From contig CAINND010000024.1 in NCBI GenBank assembly GCA_903851035.1, positions 1-64,000 of the forward strand: a DNA stretch of 64,000 nt, read 5' to 3'. Origin of the DNA: an uncultured Acidobacteriota bacterium. Its GTDB lineage: Bacteria > Acidobacteriota > Terriglobia > Terriglobales > Acidobacteriaceae. The position numbers and the translations under genes are program-made. Each line of letters opens with the position of its first letter. The stretch's first letter is position 1. The notes under the pieces were generated by a model. It was not told where the DNA came from. It made no database searches and saw only the letters and a list, made by a program, of their open reading frames with translations. Below, in pieces: positions 28,990 to 40,593 of this stretch.

Positions 28990-30111
28990 ATGGCCGGTAA
29001 TCCTTTGGCACAGTTGAGCACCCTGGGGCAGAGTCCCTGGTACGACCAGATGACGCGCAGCCTGGTAACCGAGGGCACGCTGAAAAAGATGATTGAAGAA
29101 GACGGACTGCGCGGGCTGACCAGCAATCCGACGATCTTCGAGAAGGCAATCAGCGGCAGCAAGGAGTACGACGCGGCGCTGAAGGAACTGGTGGCCCGGG
29201 GCGCGACGCTCGACGAGATTTACGACGGGCTGGTGGTGGCCGATATCGCCAGCGCCGCCGACGTCTTTCACTCCGTGTGGGAGAAGACCGAGGGCGAGGA
29301 TGGCTACGTCAGCATCGAGGTGAGCCCTCTGCTGGCCGCCGACACTGCCGGCACGGTGAAGGAAGCGAAACGCCTGCACGCCAAGCTGGGCCGGCCGAAT
29401 GTGATGATCAAGGTTCCGGCGACGCCCGAGGGGCTGCCCGCCGTGGAAGAGCTGATCAGCGAAGGCATCAGCGTGAACACGACGCTCATCTTCAGCGTCG
29501 AGGTTTACACGCATATGGCCGAGGCCTACATCAAGGGTCTGGAGCGGCGCGCCGCAGCCGGCAAGAGCGTGAAGGAAGTGGCCAGCGTGGCCAGCTTCTT
29601 CGTCAGCCGCATTGACAGTGCGGTGGACAAGCAGCTTGAGGCCCTGGCAAAGAGCGGTAACGGCGCGGCCGCGGGACTGATGGCCAAGGCGGCCATTGCC
29701 AACGCCAAGCTGGCGTATGAGAAGTTCCAGCAACTGTTCAGCGGCCCGCGCTGGGAGAAGCTGGCGAAGTTGGGTGCGCGCGTGCAGCGTCCCTTGTGGG
29801 CCAGCACCGGAACGAAGAATCCGCAGTACAGCGACGTGCTGTACATTGACACACTCATCGGGCCGCACACGGTGAACACCATTCCTCCGGCAACCTACAA
29901 CGCGTTTCGCGATCACGGTACGGCCAAGGTCACGCTGCTGGACGGCATGGCCGAGGCGCATGAGACCTTCGCCAAGCTGGCGGCCCTGGGCATCAACCTT
30001 GCGGCCATTACCGAGGAGCTGACCGTGGCCGGCGTCAAGAGCTTTGCCGAAAGCTACAACACGCTGCTGGCGGTGATCGAGCGCCGCAGGGGCGAGGTGC
30101 TGCATGGCTAA
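28990..30111 (+). CDS. tal: transaldolase (mycobacterial/TalPgi type)
   Basis: This 373-residue protein has L-T-S-N-P-T-I-F-E-K-A-I, N-V-M-I-K-V-P-A-T (Schiff-base Lys) and S-V-N-T-T-L-I-F-S. It transfers dihydroxyacetone in the non-oxidative pentose phosphate pathway. A GAGGAGATAAGG site precedes the ATG. It belongs to the class that is often fused to phosphoglucose isomerase, but here it ends with a stop that overlaps pgi by eight bases in another frame. Confidence 0.93.
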   Translation: MAGNPLAQLSTLGQSPWYDQMTRSLVTEGTLKKMIEEDGLRGLTSNPTIFEKAISGSKEYDAALKELVARGATLDEIYDGLVVADIASAADVFHSVWEKTEGEDGYVSIEVSPLLAADTAGTVKEAKRLHAKLGRPNVMIKVPATPEGLPAVEELISEGISVNTTLIFSVEVYTHMAEAYIKGLERRAAAGKSVKEVASVASFFVSRIDSAVDKQLEALAKSGNGAAAGLMAKAAIANAKLAYEKFQQLFSGPRWEKLAKLGARVQRPLWASTGTKNPQYSDVLYIDTLIGPHTVNTIPPATYNAFRDHGTAKVTLLDGMAEAHETFAKLAALGINLAAITEELTVAGVKSFAESYNTLLAVIERRRGEVLHG

Positions 30112-31786
30112 CGAAACTGGCGCCAGCGCGGGACAAAAAGCATACGATGCGGCGGCGGCACGGTTGACGGACGAGAACGTTATCGCTCGCATCTGGCAGA
30201 AGGATGCGACCGTGTGGTCGGCCTCGCCGGAGCACGCGAAAATTATCAGCAATTCCTTGGGCTGGCTGGCGGTGCCGGAGAAGACCCTGGCCAAGGCGGG
30301 CGAGCTTGAGCAGTTCGCCGAGGAGATTCGCCTGGCGGGCTTTACCCACGCCGTGGTGCTGGGCATGGGCGGCAGCAGTTTGTGTCCGGAGGTGCTGCGG
30401 CAGAGTTTTGGCCCGCAAAAAGGTTATCCCGAACTGCTGGTGCTGGATTCGACGGTGCCCGCGGCGGTGGCGCACATTGAGTCGCAGATTAAGCTGGCGA
30501 CGACGTTGTTCCTGGTGGCGTCCAAATCGGGCTCAACCACCGAGCCGCAGATGTTCGAGCGCTACTTTTTTGGCCGCGTCAGCGAGCTGAAGGGTGCCAA
30601 GGCCGGCGAAAACTTTGTGGCCATCACCGACCCCGGCACCTTGCTGGAAAGGCAGGCCACCGAGCAGGGCTACCGCAAAATCTGGGTCAACTGGCCGGAT
30701 ATCGGCGGGCGCTACTCGGCCTTGAGCTTGTTCGGCATGGTTCCCTTTGCAGTGATGGGCGGACGGGTGCGCGAGTTTTTATCGCGCGCGGTGCAGGCCG
30801 CCGAGGCTTGCCGCATATCGCAGGTGGCGGCCAATCCCGGCGCCTCGCTGGGTGCGCTGCTGGGCGCGCTGGCGGCGCAAAAGGTGGACAAGCTGACGCT
30901 GGTGGCGGGCAAGGAGATCGCCTCGCTCGGCCTGTGGATTGAACAACTGGTGGCCGAGAGCACGGGCAAAGAGGGCAAGGGCATCGTTCCCATCGCCGGT
31001 GAAACGCTGGCCGCGCCGGATGCCTACGGCAAGGATCGCCTCTTCGTCTCCATCAGCGTGGGCGACGTGGACGCGCAGACACTTGCGCAACTGGAATCGC
31101 TGGAAAAAGCGGGCTGCACCGTGGTGGCGCAGCAGTTGAGCAGCGCGCTGGATTTGGGCGCGACGTTTTTTGTGTGGGAGTTTGCCACCGCCATCGCCGG
31201 AGCCGTAATGGGCATTGACGCCTTTGACCAGCCCAACGTGCAGGAGAGCAAGGACAACACCAAGCGGCTGCTGGGCGAGTTCGTCAAGCACGGCGCACTG
31301 CCCGCGCAAAACCCTCTGCTGACGGATGGCGCGATTGCGCTTTACGGCGAGGACGCCGCGCTGGGAACGACCCTGGACGCAGCCATCACCGCGCACCTGG
31401 CCAAGGTTGTGGCGGGTGACTACGTGGCCATCACGCAATACTTTGTGGAGACCGCCGAGGTTGAGGCGCTGGTGCAGCAGCTACGGCTGGCCGTACGCGC
31501 CAAAACAAAGGCGGCGACCACCACCGGCTACGGGCCGCGCTTTCTGCACTCCACCGGGCAGTTGCACAAGGGCGGCGGAAACAACGGCGTCTTCATCCAA
31601 CTGACGGCCGCCGATGCCAAAGACGTGGCTATTCCGCGTGAGCCCTTCGGCTTCAGCGTGCTGAAGCAGGCGCAGAGTCTGGGCGATCTGGAATCGCTGG
31701 TGACGCACGGGCGGCGCGCGGTGCGCGTGGAGCTGGGTGTGGACGTGGCGGCAGGATTGCGGCGGCTGATCCAAGCTATCGGGTAA
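30104..31786 (+). CDS. pgi: glucose-6-phosphate isomerase
   Basis: This 560-residue protein has two SIS-type halves: V-L-G-M-G-G-S-S-L-C-P-E-V-L-R (about 83-97) and V-A-S-K-S-G-S-T-T-E-P (about 138-148). The C-terminal part follows the Pgi half of bifunctional Tal/Pgi proteins. It interconverts glucose-6-P and fructose-6-P. It overlaps tal by ATGGCTAA, which implies coupled translation. A terminator follows. Confidence 0.9.
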   Translation: MANETGASAGQKAYDAAAARLTDENVIARIWQKDATVWSASPEHAKIISNSLGWLAVPEKTLAKAGELEQFAEEIRLAGFTHAVVLGMGGSSLCPEVLRQSFGPQKGYPELLVLDSTVPAAVAHIESQIKLATTLFLVASKSGSTTEPQMFERYFFGRVSELKGAKAGENFVAITDPGTLLERQATEQGYRKIWVNWPDIGGRYSALSLFGMVPFAVMGGRVREFLSRAVQAAEACRISQVAANPGASLGALLGALAAQKVDKLTLVAGKEIASLGLWIEQLVAESTGKEGKGIVPIAGETLAAPDAYGKDRLFVSISVGDVDAQTLAQLESLEKAGCTVVAQQLSSALDLGATFFVWEFATAIAGAVMGIDAFDQPNVQESKDNTKRLLGEFVKHGALPAQNPLLTDGAIALYGEDAALGTTLDAAITAHLAKVVAGDYVAITQYFVETAEVEALVQQLRLAVRAKTKAATTTGYGPRFLHSTGQLHKGGGNNGVFIQLTAADAKDVAIPREPFGFSVLKQAQSLGDLESLVTHGRRAVRVELGVDVAAGLRRLIQAIG

Positions 31787-31827
31787 ATCAGGCCGTCGGG
31801 TAAGTCAAAGAGCAATTCAAACGGAAG

Positions 31828-31858
31828 CGGCGCGGCTGGCAATGATCGCGCCGTTTTT
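31828..31858 (+). terminator. rho-independent terminator after pgi
   Basis: The stem CGGCGCG-12 nt-CGCGCCG is followed by TTTTT, 42 bp after the pgi stop. It separates the tkt-rpiB-tal-pgi unit from zwf. Confidence 0.75.
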
Positions 31859-32053
31859 CTGCGTCAATTTGCTGCCGCAAATGAATTTTCATCTTCCACG
31901 CCGCCGTGGCGCATCTTAACGGGCGCAGCCGCATCAAAATCATTAGGGCTAAGCTGGCATGCGTCCGGACTGAGGGTTCGGGAGGGCGATGAGCGCGCAG
32001 CAGCCAATAAACCACACATCCGCACGATTGACGCCAAGAGAGAAAGCATAACG

Positions 32054-33595
<1,542 letters not shown>

Positions 33596-33601
<6 letters not shown>

Positions 33602-34730: not shown

Positions 34731-34870
34731 ATGCATGGGCAAAGAGCGCGCCAATGTCAGCAGATGCACTCGCGCACTCCGCAGATGCGTTTGGCGTCAA
34801 ACTATGCAGCTTGTCTGACCGGATAACGCACAGCCGGATGCCCGCAGCGTGACGCCTGTCACTGACCGCA

Positions 34871-34980: not shown

Positions 34981-37458
34981 ATGCAGCAAGACCTCTTGTG
35001 CAGCCTTCGTCGTTTTCTTTGCTCGTTCCTTCCCTCCTCCGTGCTGCCGCAAAAGAGCGACCGTGCGCAACTGGATCGCGGATGGATCATCGCCAATCAC
35101 AAGCTGGTCAGCTTTCATGCGGCCTTCCTCACCAGCCTGCTGAGCATCGATCCCACGGTCAGCTCGCGGCTGGATGTGATTCGCCAGATGTTTCTTGGCG
35201 TGGAACTGGTCATCAGTTGCGCCTTCTGGTACCTGGCATGGCACATCAACATCGCCGTGCATGAGATGGGCCACTACCTGGCGGCGGTGAAGACCAACAA
35301 CCTGCGTCCTGAGCTGGCGGCCGAGGCCGAGAAGAAGCTCTCCGGCTCCACGGGCGAGCGCCTTGCCTGGTACGCGCGCATGTTTTTGCTGATTCCCTAT
35401 GGGCGCTTTGAAGGCGTCAACAAGGAGAGCGGCAACTACCATCCGGCGGTGAAGACGCAGAACCTGGCGGTGGCCGCCGCCGGTCCGGAGTACAGCAAGC
35501 TGCTGTGCTGGGCCACGCTGCCGCTGGGACTGGCGCTGACACTGGGCGGAATGGTTTTGAGCGTGCCGATGTCGGTGTACGTGGGCCGCTTGTTCTTCAC
35601 CATTGGCGTGGTGGCCATGCTGGACTTTCTGCTGGCCGATGCCGGCAAGTACAAGGCCTTCCGCCAGCGTCAGCAGGAGGCCGCGGCCAAGGCCGCCGAG
35701 GTTCGCGCCGCGGAGCCGGAGCGCACCGCCGACAGCGGACGTCCGGTGGACCCCAGCCAGTTGCGCCGCAAGCTGCGTCTGCATCGTTTGCAGGAGCTGC
35801 AACTGCCCGACGGAACCGTGGTCTTCGCCCCCTGGGAGTTCCGCAACTCCATCATGGGCGGCCGCCACACGGAGGAGATGGGCGGCAACCTCAGCTTCCA
35901 GGAGTTCATGTTCCTGCCGCTGACGGCGCATGACTACATCGAGGCGCAGCGCGTAACCAACATGCTGCAAAGCCGCGCCATTCAAATCATCCAGGACACC
36001 GAAGGCTTGAACTTTGTCGGCATCGGGCTGGAAGGCGGCATTGTGGCCAGCTACGCACGCCTGAAAGACGACCTGCTGCCGGAAGAGCGCGCCCTGCGCG
36101 TGGCCGTGCAGGCCATTGAGGAGTGCGGCTTCGTTCCCGACCGCGACGTCTGCCTGGCCCTGGACCCGGCGGCCAGCGAGCTGAGCAACGCCTATCGCGA
36201 AAAGACCGGAGAGACCAACGCAGTGGGCCAGTATCTGTTCTGGCGCGCCGAAGACCCCAAGGTGCTGACCACTGACGAGATGGTGGAGCTGTACATCCGC
36301 TGGGTGAAGAAGTATCCCATTGTGAGCATTGAAGACGGCTTTGCCGAAGACGACCATGAGGGCTGGAAGAAGCTGATGGCCGCGCTCGACAAGGACATCC
36401 TCATCATTGGCGACGACCTGGTGACGACCAAGGATTCGACGATCCGTCATTGCGCCGAGCTGGGGCTGATCAACACGGCGCTGATCAAGGCCAACCAGAT
36501 TGGCACCCTGAGCGAGACCCTGCTGGCGACGCGCACGGCCAAGGAGATGGGCCTGTCGCTGGTAGTCAGCCATCGCTCGAAGAGTCCGAACGAGGTGATG
36601 GAGGCCGACATCAGCTTTGCCGTCGGCGCCCTGGGGTTGAAGTGCGGCGGCGGCGCAAACACCGAGCGCCTGGTGAAGTACGGCCGCATCGTGGAGTTGA
36701 TGGAGCAGGCGCGCAAGGGCATTCGCATCACCCGCAAGCTGGACCCGGAGAGCGCCATCGTGGACATCAGCGCGCACGAGGAGCCGACCAACGCCGGCAT
36801 CCCCACGGTAGGCGTGACGGTGATGCTCGACAACGGCATGAAGTTTTCGGCGGCGACACCGCTGGGCACCTCGGCCGGAACCGACGAGGCCATCCACCTT
36901 GTGGACAGCATCATTGAGGCCGGGCCGCTTACGCGCAAGTTCCCGCAGTTCTTCAAGCTAAACGAGCGCGAGAAGACCTACCGCTTTTTGCCCGACCTGA
37001 AGGCCGACGAGTTGGGCCGCGAGAGTCCGGAGCTGGCCTCGCTGTGGCTGCGCAGCAAGCGCTACGGCGGCAAGGGCTGCCTGAACGCCGTGGACAACGT
37101 GGAGCAGATCATCGCGCCGCACTTCCTGGGCAAAAAGCTGAGCGCCCTGGGTAGTTTGGCGGACGTGGACCACGCGCTGCTGGCCCTGGAGTTGGAGATG
37201 GCGCAGAAGCGCGGCAAGCTTTCACCCAATGCCACGGTGGATGAGCGCATCCTGACCATGCAGCGCAAGGCCAACCTGGGCATGAACGCCGTGCTCAGCA
37301 TGAGCCTGGCCATGGGCCGTTTGCTGGCCGCTCGCGAGGGTGCGGAGCTGCCGGATATTTTGCGCGCAGCCGAGCCGGCGATTGACCGCGAGGCTCTGTA
37401 TGGCGTGAAGAGCGCCGCAGATGCGTCGGCGGTGAAGGCCAGCGCCATCGGCGTGTAA
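34981..37458 (+). CDS. M50-like membrane metalloprotease fused to circularly permuted enolase
   Basis: This 825-residue protein starts at an ATG eight bases after AAGGAG. Residues 70-225 form a membrane part with H94-E-M-G-H98, a Gly-Pro motif (A-A-A-G-P-E-Y) in a later helix, and L-A-D220-A-G-K as possible third zinc ligand, as in site-2 proteases. Residues 291-570 are the enolase barrel half: H296, Q-E308-F-M, E351-G-G, A-L-D395, S-I-E451-D, G-D-D479, K503 (I-K-A-N-Q-I-G), S-H531-R-S, K554. Residues 596-795 are the enolase N-terminal half, now last: A-G-I-P-T-V-G-V, P-L-G-T-S631-A-G, G-G-K-G-C-L-N-A-V-D-N-V, L-G-M-N-A-V-L-S-M-S-L-A. All aligned catalytic residues are kept; two insertions interrupt the capping half. 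It may be membrane-anchored enolase or a PEP/2PG-sensing protease. Confidence 0.85.
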   Translation: MQQDLLCSLRRFLCSFLPSSVLPQKSDRAQLDRGWIIANHKLVSFHAAFLTSLLSIDPTVSSRLDVIRQMFLGVELVISCAFWYLAWHINIAVHEMGHYLAAVKTNNLRPELAAEAEKKLSGSTGERLAWYARMFLLIPYGRFEGVNKESGNYHPAVKTQNLAVAAAGPEYSKLLCWATLPLGLALTLGGMVLSVPMSVYVGRLFFTIGVVAMLDFLLADAGKYKAFRQRQQEAAAKAAEVRAAEPERTADSGRPVDPSQLRRKLRLHRLQELQLPDGTVVFAPWEFRNSIMGGRHTEEMGGNLSFQEFMFLPLTAHDYIEAQRVTNMLQSRAIQIIQDTEGLNFVGIGLEGGIVASYARLKDDLLPEERALRVAVQAIEECGFVPDRDVCLALDPAASELSNAYREKTGETNAVGQYLFWRAEDPKVLTTDEMVELYIRWVKKYPIVSIEDGFAEDDHEGWKKLMAALDKDILIIGDDLVTTKDSTIRHCAELGLINTALIKANQIGTLSETLLATRTAKEMGLSLVVSHRSKSPNEVMEADISFAVGALGLKCGGGANTERLVKYGRIVELMEQARKGIRITRKLDPESAIVDISAHEEPTNAGIPTVGVTVMLDNGMKFSAATPLGTSAGTDEAIHLVDSIIEAGPLTRKFPQFFKLNEREKTYRFLPDLKADELGRESPELASLWLRSKRYGGKGCLNAVDNVEQIIAPHFLGKKLSALGSLADVDHALLALELEMAQKRGKLSPNATVDERILTMQRKANLGMNAVLSMSLAMGRLLAAREGAELPDILRAAEPAIDREALYGVKSAADASAVKASAIGV

Positions 37459-37595: not shown

Positions 37596-40277
37596 CTAGC
37601 AGTCGTCCGGGCCGGGCAGGCGGATATTTTCTTCCTTGCAGATTTTTTCCAACTGCCGCACCGACCAGCAGGCCTTGAAGTCGTAGAAGATGCGGAAGGG
37701 CTGTTGCAGCATCTCCAGCACGGTGAGGGTCTGCGCGTCGCTCCATGCGGGCAGGGCGCGGCAGACCTCATCGAGCGGGGCGTGGCTGAGCTTGAGGGTG
37801 ATGAGTCCCCAGCTCAGGTTGCCGGCATGCAGTGAGAGGTCTTCCAGCCCGTTCTTCAGAATCTGTTTGCGTGCCAGCAGCACGCGGCGCTCGCCCACGT
37901 TGTGCAACACCTGCATATATTTTTCAAACAGCACCCACTCGTTCACCAGCATGGCAATCTCGGCCGGGGTAAAGGCCTTCCAGAACTTGATGGGATAGCG
38001 CAGGCAGAGGAAGCGGCCGAGCATGAAGGCGCCTGCCTCGTAGCCGGAGAGGTGGCTTTCCTTCAGCGTGGCCAGGGTGCGGCGGAAGAAGCGTATCTTG
38101 CGCTCCAGGGTGAGCATTTCGAAGACGTTGCTCTGGCCCAGATGGTCGCCGATGTCGCTCTTGAGCACCTCCTCGGAGTAAAGCTCCTCGTGGTTGTCGA
38201 ACCAGGCGTTGACCAGGCGGCGGGCGCTGTCGGTATCCGTGCGCAGCTCAAAGTTCACCAGGCGGATGACCTCGCCGAGGGTGGAGCTCTGGTCAAACTC
38301 CAGGCCGCGGTTGAGCTGCTGATAGTAGCGGAAGGCGTAGGCGATCTGCGCGAAGCTGGTCGTTTCGTCCTCGTCGAGGGCGAAGATTTCTCCCTGCATG
38401 TAGCGCAGCAGGCGGCCCGGGCGGAAGTGGGCGCGGCCGATATAGACCGTGGCATGGCGAGAACTGATGGTGATCCAGTCGCCCTCACGAACCTCCACGC
38501 CCTCGGCGTTGATGAGCCCGCCATCCTCGCGCTGTTCCAGCCGCACGCCGCTTTTTTCCAGGCTGAGCAGGCCGGGGATGCCGAGGCTCTGGCAGATGGT
38601 GACGACGTGCACGGCGGCCGAGGTGAGGCTGATGATGGCATCCATCTCACGCATCACCGCCGAATCGGTGGGCAGGAAGGTCTGCTTGCAGAGGCAGACT
38701 TTTTCTCCCTGGCCCTTGGCGGTGAGCGCGGTTGCACCGCTGAAGAAGACGCGCGCGCTCATGGCCGAACGCGGCAGCACGCTGACGCCGGTGCAGAACC
38801 TCTGCAACGCCTGCAGGTCGTGCTCGTCAATCGTGTCGCTGGTGAGCTGCTTGATGTGATAGGGGCGGATCAGTTCGGTGACGCGCTGGCGGCTGATGAT
38901 GCCGGATTTGTGCATGTCCACGGCGCTGATGACGGCGGCGCGGCCAACCATGCCTGTCTGGTTGAGCTGAAGCAGGGCGAAGAGCTGGTGGCGCTCGGTG
39001 GCCTCCACCGCAAACTCGATGGTGACCGGCGACTCGAACTCGCGCTCCAGATGGCCGAAGCTGGGCACAAAGTGATGCACGGCCGGGAAGCTGTCGCGGA
39101 TGGCCTCCGGATCTTCGAAGGCCAGGGACTTGGCCTCGGCCGTGCCGGTCATCATCTCCTCGCCAAAGACGTTGTGCGCGGTTTGCAGTTCGCTGCCGAG
39201 GCCGGTCTGCGAGTGGCGGCTGTTGACCACGCCGACGTAAGCCGACTCATCGCGCACGGTGCAGACCATTTTTTGCAGGATGAGGCTGGGATGATGCTCG
39301 GCGCCTCGGCAGAGGGCCAGCACAAGCTCCTGGTTGGCCTCAAAATGATGGTAGGCCTGGCGGGCGAGGAAGGATGCCTGGCGATAAGGGTCCTCGACGA
39401 GCTCACGATGTTCGCGGCTCAGCTCCTGGCAAAGGCGCGCGGTCAGCTCGACCACCTGCTCGTCGGCCAGGTCGGCGCGAACTTCGCCCAGCAAACGTGT
39501 GTAATCCTCGCGGCCCAGCGCCTGGCAAAGGTTGCGCAGGTTGTTGAGAAACATCTTATGCGCCGCCTGCAGGCCGTAACGTTTTTCCAGGCTGGGCAGG
39601 GTGCGCGGCGTGACGCCCACGTTGAGGTAGGTATCGAGCAGGCCGGGAATGTAATACGCGGTGGCGCAGCGCAGGGCGAAGATGAGCGGCTCGTTGGGGT
39701 CGCCGAGCTTCTGCATGGTCAGCAATTCAAGCTGGCGGATGGCCTCGGCCAGATGCAGCTCAAAATCCTTGTGGCGCTCGGCGTAGGTCTGCGTGGTGAG
39801 CACGGCAAAATCCGGCACGGGATAGCCCATCTGGCTGAGCTTGAGCAGGATGAAGGCCTTCTGGCTGATCTCCTGTTCGCTGTGCGTCTGCTGGCTGCTG
39901 CTGGGCACCACGTAGGGGCTCTCCGAAGGCGGCACGGGTGAGATGCCGAGAAAGCCTTCACTGGTGCGCACACAGGCCAGTTGCTGGGCGGAGTCCTTGT
40001 GGCCATTGCGGGCGTTGAGGATGAGCGCCAGGTGCGCCTTGGCCTCGTCGAGCGAGGCGTTGCAGAGGGTGGGCAGGTCGGTCTCCCGCACGTTGAGCGA
40101 GAGCTGCGGGCCACTTGCCAGGCGATAGGTGGCCACCGGCGGCAGATAGCCGATGGGCTGCGGCGGAATGGGCTCTCCGGCGGCGGGCATGGCGCGGCGG
40201 GAAAGCAGTGTGCGGCGATTGTAGAAGCTGCCGCGGATGCGCAGTTCGGCGATATCGGCGGATGCGAGCAGGTCCAT
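37596..40277 (-). CDS. PPDK-like (PEP/pyruvate-binding) protein lacking phosphohistidine
   Basis: This 893-residue protein starts at the ATG at 40275-40277; a TTG 24 bases upstream is weaker. Residues 140-450 follow the pyruvate phosphate dikinase nucleotide-binding domain: M-G-Y-P-V-P-D-F-A-V-L-T, A-L-R-C-A-T...P-G-L-L-D-T-Y-L-N-V-G-V, L-Q-K-M-V, T-G-L-G-S-E-L-Q-T-A-H-N-V-F-G-E. The phosphohistidine domain near 540-600 aligns well, but M-T-S-H-A-A-V is L-T-S-A554-A-V, removing the His; a His lies three residues later. The last 270 residues are helical and do not look like the PEP-binding barrel. It is probably a regulatory or altered phosphotransfer protein. Confidence 0.75.
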   Translation of the reverse strand: MDLLASADIAELRIRGSFYNRRTLLSRRAMPAAGEPIPPQPIGYLPPVATYRLASGPQLSLNVRETDLPTLCNASLDEAKAHLALILNARNGHKDSAQQLACVRTSEGFLGISPVPPSESPYVVPSSSQQTHSEQEISQKAFILLKLSQMGYPVPDFAVLTTQTYAERHKDFELHLAEAIRQLELLTMQKLGDPNEPLIFALRCATAYYIPGLLDTYLNVGVTPRTLPSLEKRYGLQAAHKMFLNNLRNLCQALGREDYTRLLGEVRADLADEQVVELTARLCQELSREHRELVEDPYRQASFLARQAYHHFEANQELVLALCRGAEHHPSLILQKMVCTVRDESAYVGVVNSRHSQTGLGSELQTAHNVFGEEMMTGTAEAKSLAFEDPEAIRDSFPAVHHFVPSFGHLEREFESPVTIEFAVEATERHQLFALLQLNQTGMVGRAAVISAVDMHKSGIISRQRVTELIRPYHIKQLTSDTIDEHDLQALQRFCTGVSVLPRSAMSARVFFSGATALTAKGQGEKVCLCKQTFLPTDSAVMREMDAIISLTSAAVHVVTICQSLGIPGLLSLEKSGVRLEQREDGGLINAEGVEVREGDWITISSRHATVYIGRAHFRPGRLLRYMQGEIFALDEDETTSFAQIAYAFRYYQQLNRGLEFDQSSTLGEVIRLVNFELRTDTDSARRLVNAWFDNHEELYSEEVLKSDIGDHLGQSNVFEMLTLERKIRFFRRTLATLKESHLSGYEAGAFMLGRFLCLRYPIKFWKAFTPAEIAMLVNEWVLFEKYMQVLHNVGERRVLLARKQILKNGLEDLSLHAGNLSWGLITLKLSHAPLDEVCRALPAWSDAQTLTVLEMLQQPFRIFYDFKACWSVRQLEKICKEENIRLPGPDDC

Positions 40278-40593
40278 AGACGGCAATTCCCCGGGCGGCA
40301 AGGTTAGTCCGGCAGGGGCAATGCCTGTCTGTGTGGAAAGTCACCGGCGGCGGTGACCCGTGGCCCGGGCAGTGCAAGGATTCCCCGGACAGGATAAGGT
40401 CAACCGCCCGGCAGGCGGGTTTAATAGATTGCAGCAGAAGGGCTTGGCGTGCGCAGGTGGGCGCGCCGGGCAATTACTTTGGAACCAGCAGCGCAACATC
40501 CGGCGAGAAACCGGGTTTGCCTACCTAGCAGCCATGGGGTCATGATGCACCCGGCTGAAGTGTACGAGAGTCGACGCAAGGAGCGACGAGTTT
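40278..40593. other. intergenic region with palindromes, divergent genes
   Basis: This 316-bp region between the PPDK-like start and the DUF3300 gene has no credible ORF. It contains GTCACC-ggcggc-GGTGAC (40340-40357) and a second hairpin CCGCC-cggca-GGCGG (about 40406-40420), either of which could be an operator or transcript hairpin. Confidence 0.4.

Follow-up and report, generated by a model that had tools for sequence, protein, structure and literature searches.

A natural circular permutation of enolase fused to an M50-like membrane domain and co-inherited with a dikinase-like gene

Introduction

Can the two halves of enolase, one of the most highly conserved enzymes known, follow each other in the wrong order behind a membrane domain and still make up a genuine protein, and what might such a protein do? 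The question is raised by a 64,000-nucleotide stretch of DNA from an uncultured Acidobacteriota bacterium (contig CAINND010000024.1, positions 1 to 64,000; hereafter the window), in which positions 34,981 to 37,458 of the forward strand encode a protein of 825 residues. An earlier note, made from the sequence alone, described it as a circularly permuted enolase fused to a membrane metalloprotease domain, and knew of no described protein with this architecture. The open-access literature that we searched, which does not extend to bioRxiv preprints or to the bulk of subscription papers, likewise showed no natural permuted enolase and no fusion of enolase to an M50/site-2 protease. The parts belong to known families; their order, their fusion and the two-gene module described below appear to be undescribed, and a new kind of system possibly lies behind this module.

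Results

The two enolase halves occur in reversed order

The frame at 34,981–37,458 is free of stop codons over its 825 residues, with a start that is provisional, the frame being open upstream to a GTG at 34,849. Reading along the forward strand, the protein begins with an M50-like membrane domain of about four hydrophobic segments (residues ~30–235, positions 35,068–35,685), delimited by a Pfam match below cut-off, hydropathy and conservation. A linker containing Lys and Arg (residues 236–282, positions 35,686–35,826) leads to the enolase barrel (residues 283–577, positions 35,827–36,711), from which a new junction, placed by alignment and linking what is the C-terminus of an ordinary enolase to its N-terminus (residues 578–590, positions 36,712–36,750), leads to the enolase capping domain (residues 591–801, positions 36,751–37,383). 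The capping domain carries an insert at about residues 644–692, which is absent from the ordinary enolases compared and from the related locus L088.

Three lines of comparison place the halves in this order. Pfam Enolase_C matches residues 284–576 (E 3.1e-56; 191.3 bits, cut-off 21.5), and the best stretch for Enolase_N lies downstream of it, at residues 594–643 (E 3.5e-15; 56.8 bits, cut-off 35). With phmmer, residues 283–577 align to residues 142–414 of the PDB enolase chain 1iyx (i-E 6e-45), and residues 591–642 and 693–758 to chain residues 2–53 and 57–117, matches that are individually weak (i-E 28 and 0.013). When ordinary enolases were cut into halves and aligned, all 16 capping halves fell at residues 592–801 and all 16 barrel halves started at residue 283. 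Each half is present only once, and the barrel begins 13 residues before the catalytic His296. The same permuted order is kept in all 21 permuted rows of our alignment, which include the window and span four phyla. These results confirm that the 825-residue protein is a natural circular permutation of enolase, cut at the hinge between its domains, and both the domain order and the position of the cut just before the catalytic histidine are as the earlier note had proposed.

The fusion recurs in four phyla and is under purifying selection

A search with the membrane part gave strong matches (E ≤7e-103) in 18 of the 398 genomes of the window's family, spread over 10 genera and including the window's own genome; a nineteenth match (G314, E 8e-4), interrupted by two stops, was excluded from this count. 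Its occurrence is patchy: the window's genus is represented by three further genomes, none of which has a match, so that the permuted protein is dispensable. In the 17 other family genomes the open reading frames align over all three domains, save for L058, which is truncated by a contig end and was left out of alignment A1, and L052, in which 49 residues of the cap are missing in frame (this locus is in alignment A1 and not in A5).

A scan of named genomes returned 22 loci, 19 of which (L070–L088) match both the membrane and the enolase parts: 14 from Acidobacteria/Terriglobia, several of them not independent of the 18 family genomes, two from Elusimicrobia, two from Deltaproteobacteria (ranked in Myxococcota) and one from Omnitrophota, with the unclassified L089 left out of the counts. 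Matches were also found in 6 of 285 Omnitrophota genomes, all six having the order membrane domain, barrel, cap, and in 1 of 247 sampled Elusimicrobiota genomes, which is the genome on which the sample was centred. Two scans of viral contigs found no relative. The carriers include bacteria known through environmental DNA. In a tree of 37 barrels, with long branches and a midpoint root only, the 21 permuted sequences are split from the 16 ordinary ones by a 100/100 branch.

The membrane domain, the barrel and the cap each show dN well below dS in all seven pairs compared (dN/dS at most ~0.25), with dS near saturation in the pair that contains the window and with weaker constraint on the linker. 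For the pair L062 and L065, dN/dS is 0.021/0.211 in the membrane domain, 0.016/0.394 in the barrel and 0.051/0.373 in the cap. The earlier note had called for a search for homologues with the same order, and the fusion to the membrane HEMGH domain, together with that order, was recovered from many assemblies in the four phyla. We found nothing in favour of an artefact of assembly or binning, or of two genes misread as one; the homologues with the same order refute such a reading, and purifying selection in the domains that flank each joint also speaks against it, leaving it vanishingly improbable.

The catalytic residues of enolase are retained and neighbouring loops altered

Twelve positions are identical in 21/21 permuted and 16/16 ordinary enolase rows of the alignment, namely S39, H159, E168, E211, D246, E295, D320, K345, H373, R374, S375 and K396 in what we take to be the yeast numbering, with the roles that we assume for them. 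The corresponding set in the window's protein comprises His296, Glu308, Glu351, Asp395, Glu451, Asp478, Lys503, His531, Arg532, Ser533 and Lys554 in the barrel and the loop residue Ser631 in the cap. The catalytic histidine, both glutamates, the three metal ligands, the lysine and the loop serine, which the earlier note had aligned, are all present at the tested positions. The six Omnitrophota rows are just 43–48% identical to the window, yet keep all 12. Presumably these 12 include the residues that bind the phosphate group of 2-phosphoglycerate (2-PG) and its two magnesium ions, as well as the proton-transfer residues of enolase, which we take to be Lys345, Glu168 and Glu211.

Other positions around the active site have changed. 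The DSRG signature reads TNAG in the window, with D replaced by T and R by A in 21/21 permuted rows; the Ser36 position holds Leu in 19 and Val in 2 of these rows, and the Asp209 position Leu in 20 and Met in 1. Because these three sites are replaced, 2-PG may not be the substrate. The protein also misses the cut-off of the NCBIfam enolase equivalog TIGR01060, at 245.9 against 300 bits. Judged from these alignments, the enolase domain appears capable of catalysis, with changes around its active-site loops.

A model of the enolase part reached a pLDDT of 92.0 and a pTM of 0.91, from an input of 53 rows that included the 16 ordinary enolases as separate halves, so that the model was not blind to the ordinary halves. 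The N-domain of enolase consists of a three-stranded sheet followed by helices; the modelled cap shows, with high confidence, three main strands and two short ones, then helices. The outcome that the earlier note named as refuting its reading, a failure of residues 596–795 to adopt the capping fold, is therefore not what the model predicts. The modelled barrel superposes on E. coli enolase (1e9i_D) with a Z of 34.2 and an rmsd of 1.8 over 278 residues; in these VIA-align comparisons the rows end at model residue 322–326, the regions beyond being barely compared, and Foldseek alignments of the model span 295–330 columns. The capping fold is accordingly a predicted one, assigned from sequence profiles, alignment and modelled secondary structure without an independent structural match. 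A model of the whole protein, built with 17 closely related sequences, was of poor quality (pLDDT 47.3, pTM 0.26), gives no support for any placing of the enolase and membrane domains relative to each other, and was not used.

The membrane domain is M50-like

Hydropathy places hydrophobic segments within residues 36–67, 64–94, 174–192 and 201–219, with a hydrophobic stretch running directly into the HEMGH motif (residues 94–98, positions 35,260–35,274). A further flag at residues 766–784, inside the cap, is taken for a buried cap helix. Across 13 diverse aligned rows, HExGHY is invariant, as are Ala166, Gly168 and Pro169 of the AAGP motif (residues 166–169, positions 35,476–35,487), the counterpart of the M50 AGP, in which Ala167 is kept in 11 of the 13. 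Also invariant are Gly222 and Asp220, the latter being the Asp of a DxG motif (positions 35,638–35,640) and a candidate third metal ligand, and Asp215 is kept in 12 of the 13 rows.

Pfam Peptidase_M50 (PF02163) matches residues 88–237 with E 4.6e-5 and 23.3 bits, and two further searches gave the window 25.2 and 25.8 bits, all below the 27.2 cut-off; among the ten members of alignment A2, nine match at E ≤1, the best at 1.4e-6. The NxxPxxxLDG motif was not seen in the membrane domain, and is present at nine loci for ordinary M50 proteins in these genomes, whose open reading frames had been chosen by a filter that requires DG. Aligned by hhalign to five ordinary M50 rows, the domain was covered only at the HExGH segment (16 and 22 columns), and its profile had no match among PDB chains at E ≤10. 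We therefore call the domain M50-like rather than M50. The metalloprotease identity named in the earlier note is likely, although membership of M50 is weak, with a score under the cut-off and a profile match to ordinary M50 proteins confined to HExGH.

A barrel-less dikinase-like gene is inherited with the permuted enolase

Directly downstream, on the reverse strand, lies a convergent gene with a provisional start (positions 37,596–40,301) that encodes ATP-grasp and phosphohistidine regions of the pyruvate, phosphate dikinase (PPDK) type. The earlier reading did not list this neighbour. The NCBIfam PPDK model is matched over positions 17–511 of 865, and a profile of the partner family (A3) covers residues 12–515 of 874 in the PPDK structure 1dik (E 5e-79). 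The resemblance stops at these points (511/865 and 515/874), and no PEP/pyruvate barrel was matched in the NCBIfam, Pfam or 1dik comparisons; Pfam alone gives just E 0.24 for PPDK_N and has no match at E ≤1 for the C-terminal part. His551, numbered in the frame 37,599–40,259 (codon at 38,607–38,609, reverse strand), is invariant in 10/10 aligned rows and aligns to the presumed swivelling-domain histidine of 1dik. Opposite an Arg of 1dik that we take to be Arg337, the partner in the window carries Asn.

An orthologue of this partner (E ≤8.5e-190) was found in exactly the same 18 of the 398 family genomes and in none of the other 380, in a search that scored at most two candidates per genome; 23 other family genomes gave only matches of 23–26%, which we take for ordinary dikinases. 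The two genes are convergent, tail to tail, in 24 of 26 other loci, overlapping or at most 100 bases apart in 20 of these, and so do not form one operon. The two exceptions are L058, at a contig end, and L088, where both parts lie in one polypeptide. No other neighbour recurs in more than three other loci among the 11 of 27 loci listed, open reading frames that overlap the two genes aside.

Arrangements differ within Omnitrophota, where six genomes have the permuted enolase. The PPDK-like part shares an open reading frame with the permuted enolase in two of them (G422, G449), starts in the same frame and continues in the next in a third (G703), and lies in the frame just upstream in a fourth (G680); it was not found in the stretch examined around the locus in G597 and G643. 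Because the Omnitrophota polypeptides also hold unrelated enzymes, the argument from fusion is weakened. For the function of the permuted protein, the co-inherited dikinase-like gene offers the best lead.

The permuted enolase usually accompanies another enolase

The window's genome also carries an ordinary enolase (G000:C96), and a second enolase with a high score, presumed to have the ordinary domain order, occurs in 22 of the 25 other carriers. The permuted copy is thus normally an extra enolase. No enolase besides the permuted one was found in G101 (100% complete by estimate, in 8 contigs), G130 (91% complete) or G424. This would suggest that the permuted enolase can replace the ordinary enzyme in these three genomes; a missing stretch of genome is an alternative. 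In the sister genome G145 a phosphoglycerate mutase gene lies beside eno, and no counterpart of it was found in G101, where the best match to the gene next after it is 35%.

Discussion

We tentatively favour, at somewhat below an even chance, a model in which a membrane-held and catalytically competent second enolase is coupled to an M50-like protease and forms one module with its dikinase-like partner. The enolase domain would lie on the cytosolic side, because a linker with Lys and Arg follows the membrane segments (the positive-inside rule), and would bind and probably interconvert 2-PG and phosphoenolpyruvate (PEP) or a close analogue. Ligand occupancy of this domain could be linked to the M50-like active site, in loose analogy to site-2 proteases (S2P) with a C-terminal CBS domain, and the phosphohistidine domain of the partner may exchange a phosphoryl group with the enolase-bound ligand or read it out, such that the module would tie the PEP/adenylate state of the cell to membrane proteolysis. 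The permutation sets the new N-terminus of the enolase at the hinge, and the membrane anchor is thereby attached where the barrel meets the cap. A bolder form of this model, which we consider unlikely, has the permuted active enolase serving as metabolite reader and PEP handler of an intramembrane metalloprotease and exchanging phosphoryl groups with the barrel-less dikinase, with glycolytic 2-PG/PEP flux driving membrane proteolysis.

Two other readings remain serious rivals to this model. The partner resembles PPDK over 1dik residues 12–515 of 874 and has no match to a PEP barrel, it co-occurs perfectly with the permuted enolase across 398 genomes, and the two share a polypeptide in two of six Omnitrophota genomes; these observations would fit a split dikinase-type enzyme encoded by the two genes, in which the permuted barrel replaces the missing PEP barrel, the phosphohistidine domain shuttles from one protein to the other and the M50-like domain is mainly an anchor. 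However, the active site of enolase is of the lyase type and we are aware of no enolase acting as a phosphate donor to histidine, a mere anchor would not need an HExGH that is invariant in 13/13 rows, and the partner in the window carries Asn in place of the presumed Arg337, so that we give this reading a minor share of our belief. The parallel changes at the DSRG, Ser36 and Asp209 positions in all 21 permuted rows, with the 12 active-site positions kept, and the coexistence of a second enolase in 22 of 25 other carriers and in the window's own genome, would instead fit an enolase that has taken up a new function, performing enolase chemistry at the membrane on a substrate other than 2-PG. Against this stands the retention, within the 12, of the residues that we take to bind the 2-PG phosphate and magnesium, and we regard it, too, as rather unlikely.

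It is also conceivable that the enolase domain is non-catalytic and merely gates the membrane protease as a ligand sensor. Such a sensor would not need the presumed proton-transfer residues Lys345, Glu168 and Glu211, which are identical in 21/21 permuted rows, and we find this reading distinctly improbable. It does have a precedent in form, in that S2P proteases with C-terminal CBS domains exist (PMC11486902).

The interest of these findings is twofold. A permuted enolase with an intact active site, kept by selection in four phyla, is a natural test of how far enolase depends on the order of its chain. Through its strict pairing with a dikinase that shows no barrel, and with a membrane domain of M50-like type, it also points to a connection of proteolysis at the membrane with central metabolism, one that is testable with two genes.

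Each part can be set against a known system. Like enolase (PF03952 and PF00113), the permuted protein has a homologous barrel and cap, 12 of 12 tested residues and a barrel that superposes on that of E. coli enolase; unlike it, the protein has its halves reversed, an insert in the cap, a fusion to a membrane domain, no DSRG and a score below the equivalog cut-off. C-terminal CBS domains define the S2P group to which SpoIVFB and mjS2P belong; the role of these domains is termed enigmatic (PMC11486902), and the analogy to them is loose for that reason. The permuted protein shares with this group the hydrophobic segments, HExGH, GP, a late Asp and a C-terminal globular domain after a linker, and differs from it in scoring below the Pfam cut-off, in showing no NxxPxxxLDG and in having an enolase where the group has CBS. 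The partner, finally, departs from PPDK in having no match to the PEP/pyruvate barrel and a C-terminal part without a Pfam match at E ≤1, but its profile covers both the ATP-grasp and the phosphohistidine regions of 1dik, with histidine falling on histidine.

Genomic context and variants of the permuted enolase

Upstream of the permuted enolase, the window carries transaldolase, phosphoglucose isomerase-like and glucose-6-phosphate dehydrogenase genes (28990-33601), for which we found no homologues in two or more of the 26 other permuted-enolase loci compared. The permuted enolase is the only enolase seen in three carrier genomes (G101, at locus L064, G424 and G130), where sequence may be absent. 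Among its relatives, one polypeptide (L110:3-6863) holds two permuted enolases, each comprising barrel plus cap, the first of which lies right where the contig begins, and an otherwise similar relative from the window's family (L052:8240-10666) has lost 49 residues inside the cap, in frame.

Giant polypeptides of Omnitrophota

In the Omnitrophota genome G449, a single ORF on contig C13 (loci L106-L108) encodes 10304 residues. A Pfam scan of this protein beyond its first 400 residues (L107, L108) matched Glu/Leu dehydrogenase and 2-hydroxyacid dehydrogenase, as well as glucosamine-6-phosphate isomerase, PIG-L and HEAT domains. In another giant polypeptide (L104:751-10395), the Glu/Leu dehydrogenase region spans residues 618-1008, with the best stretch of the C-terminal domain (618-774) lying ahead of that of the N-terminal domain (909-1008), a domain order suggesting that this dehydrogenase is possibly a second permuted enzyme.

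Counting 5-mers in the 10304-residue polypeptide, we found 18 copies of RSELR, compared with 4 of the second-ranking 5-mer and a mean of 0.019 RSELR copies expected across 1000 shuffles. These copies are encoded by varied codons, and several of them flank recognised domains. A DNA pattern matching RSELR occurred 147 times in the G449 genome, compared with 8 for a reversed control, and 0-1 times per genome in five other Omnitrophota. Judged from sequence, RSELR resembles a separator in metabolic polyproteins or a signal for their processing.
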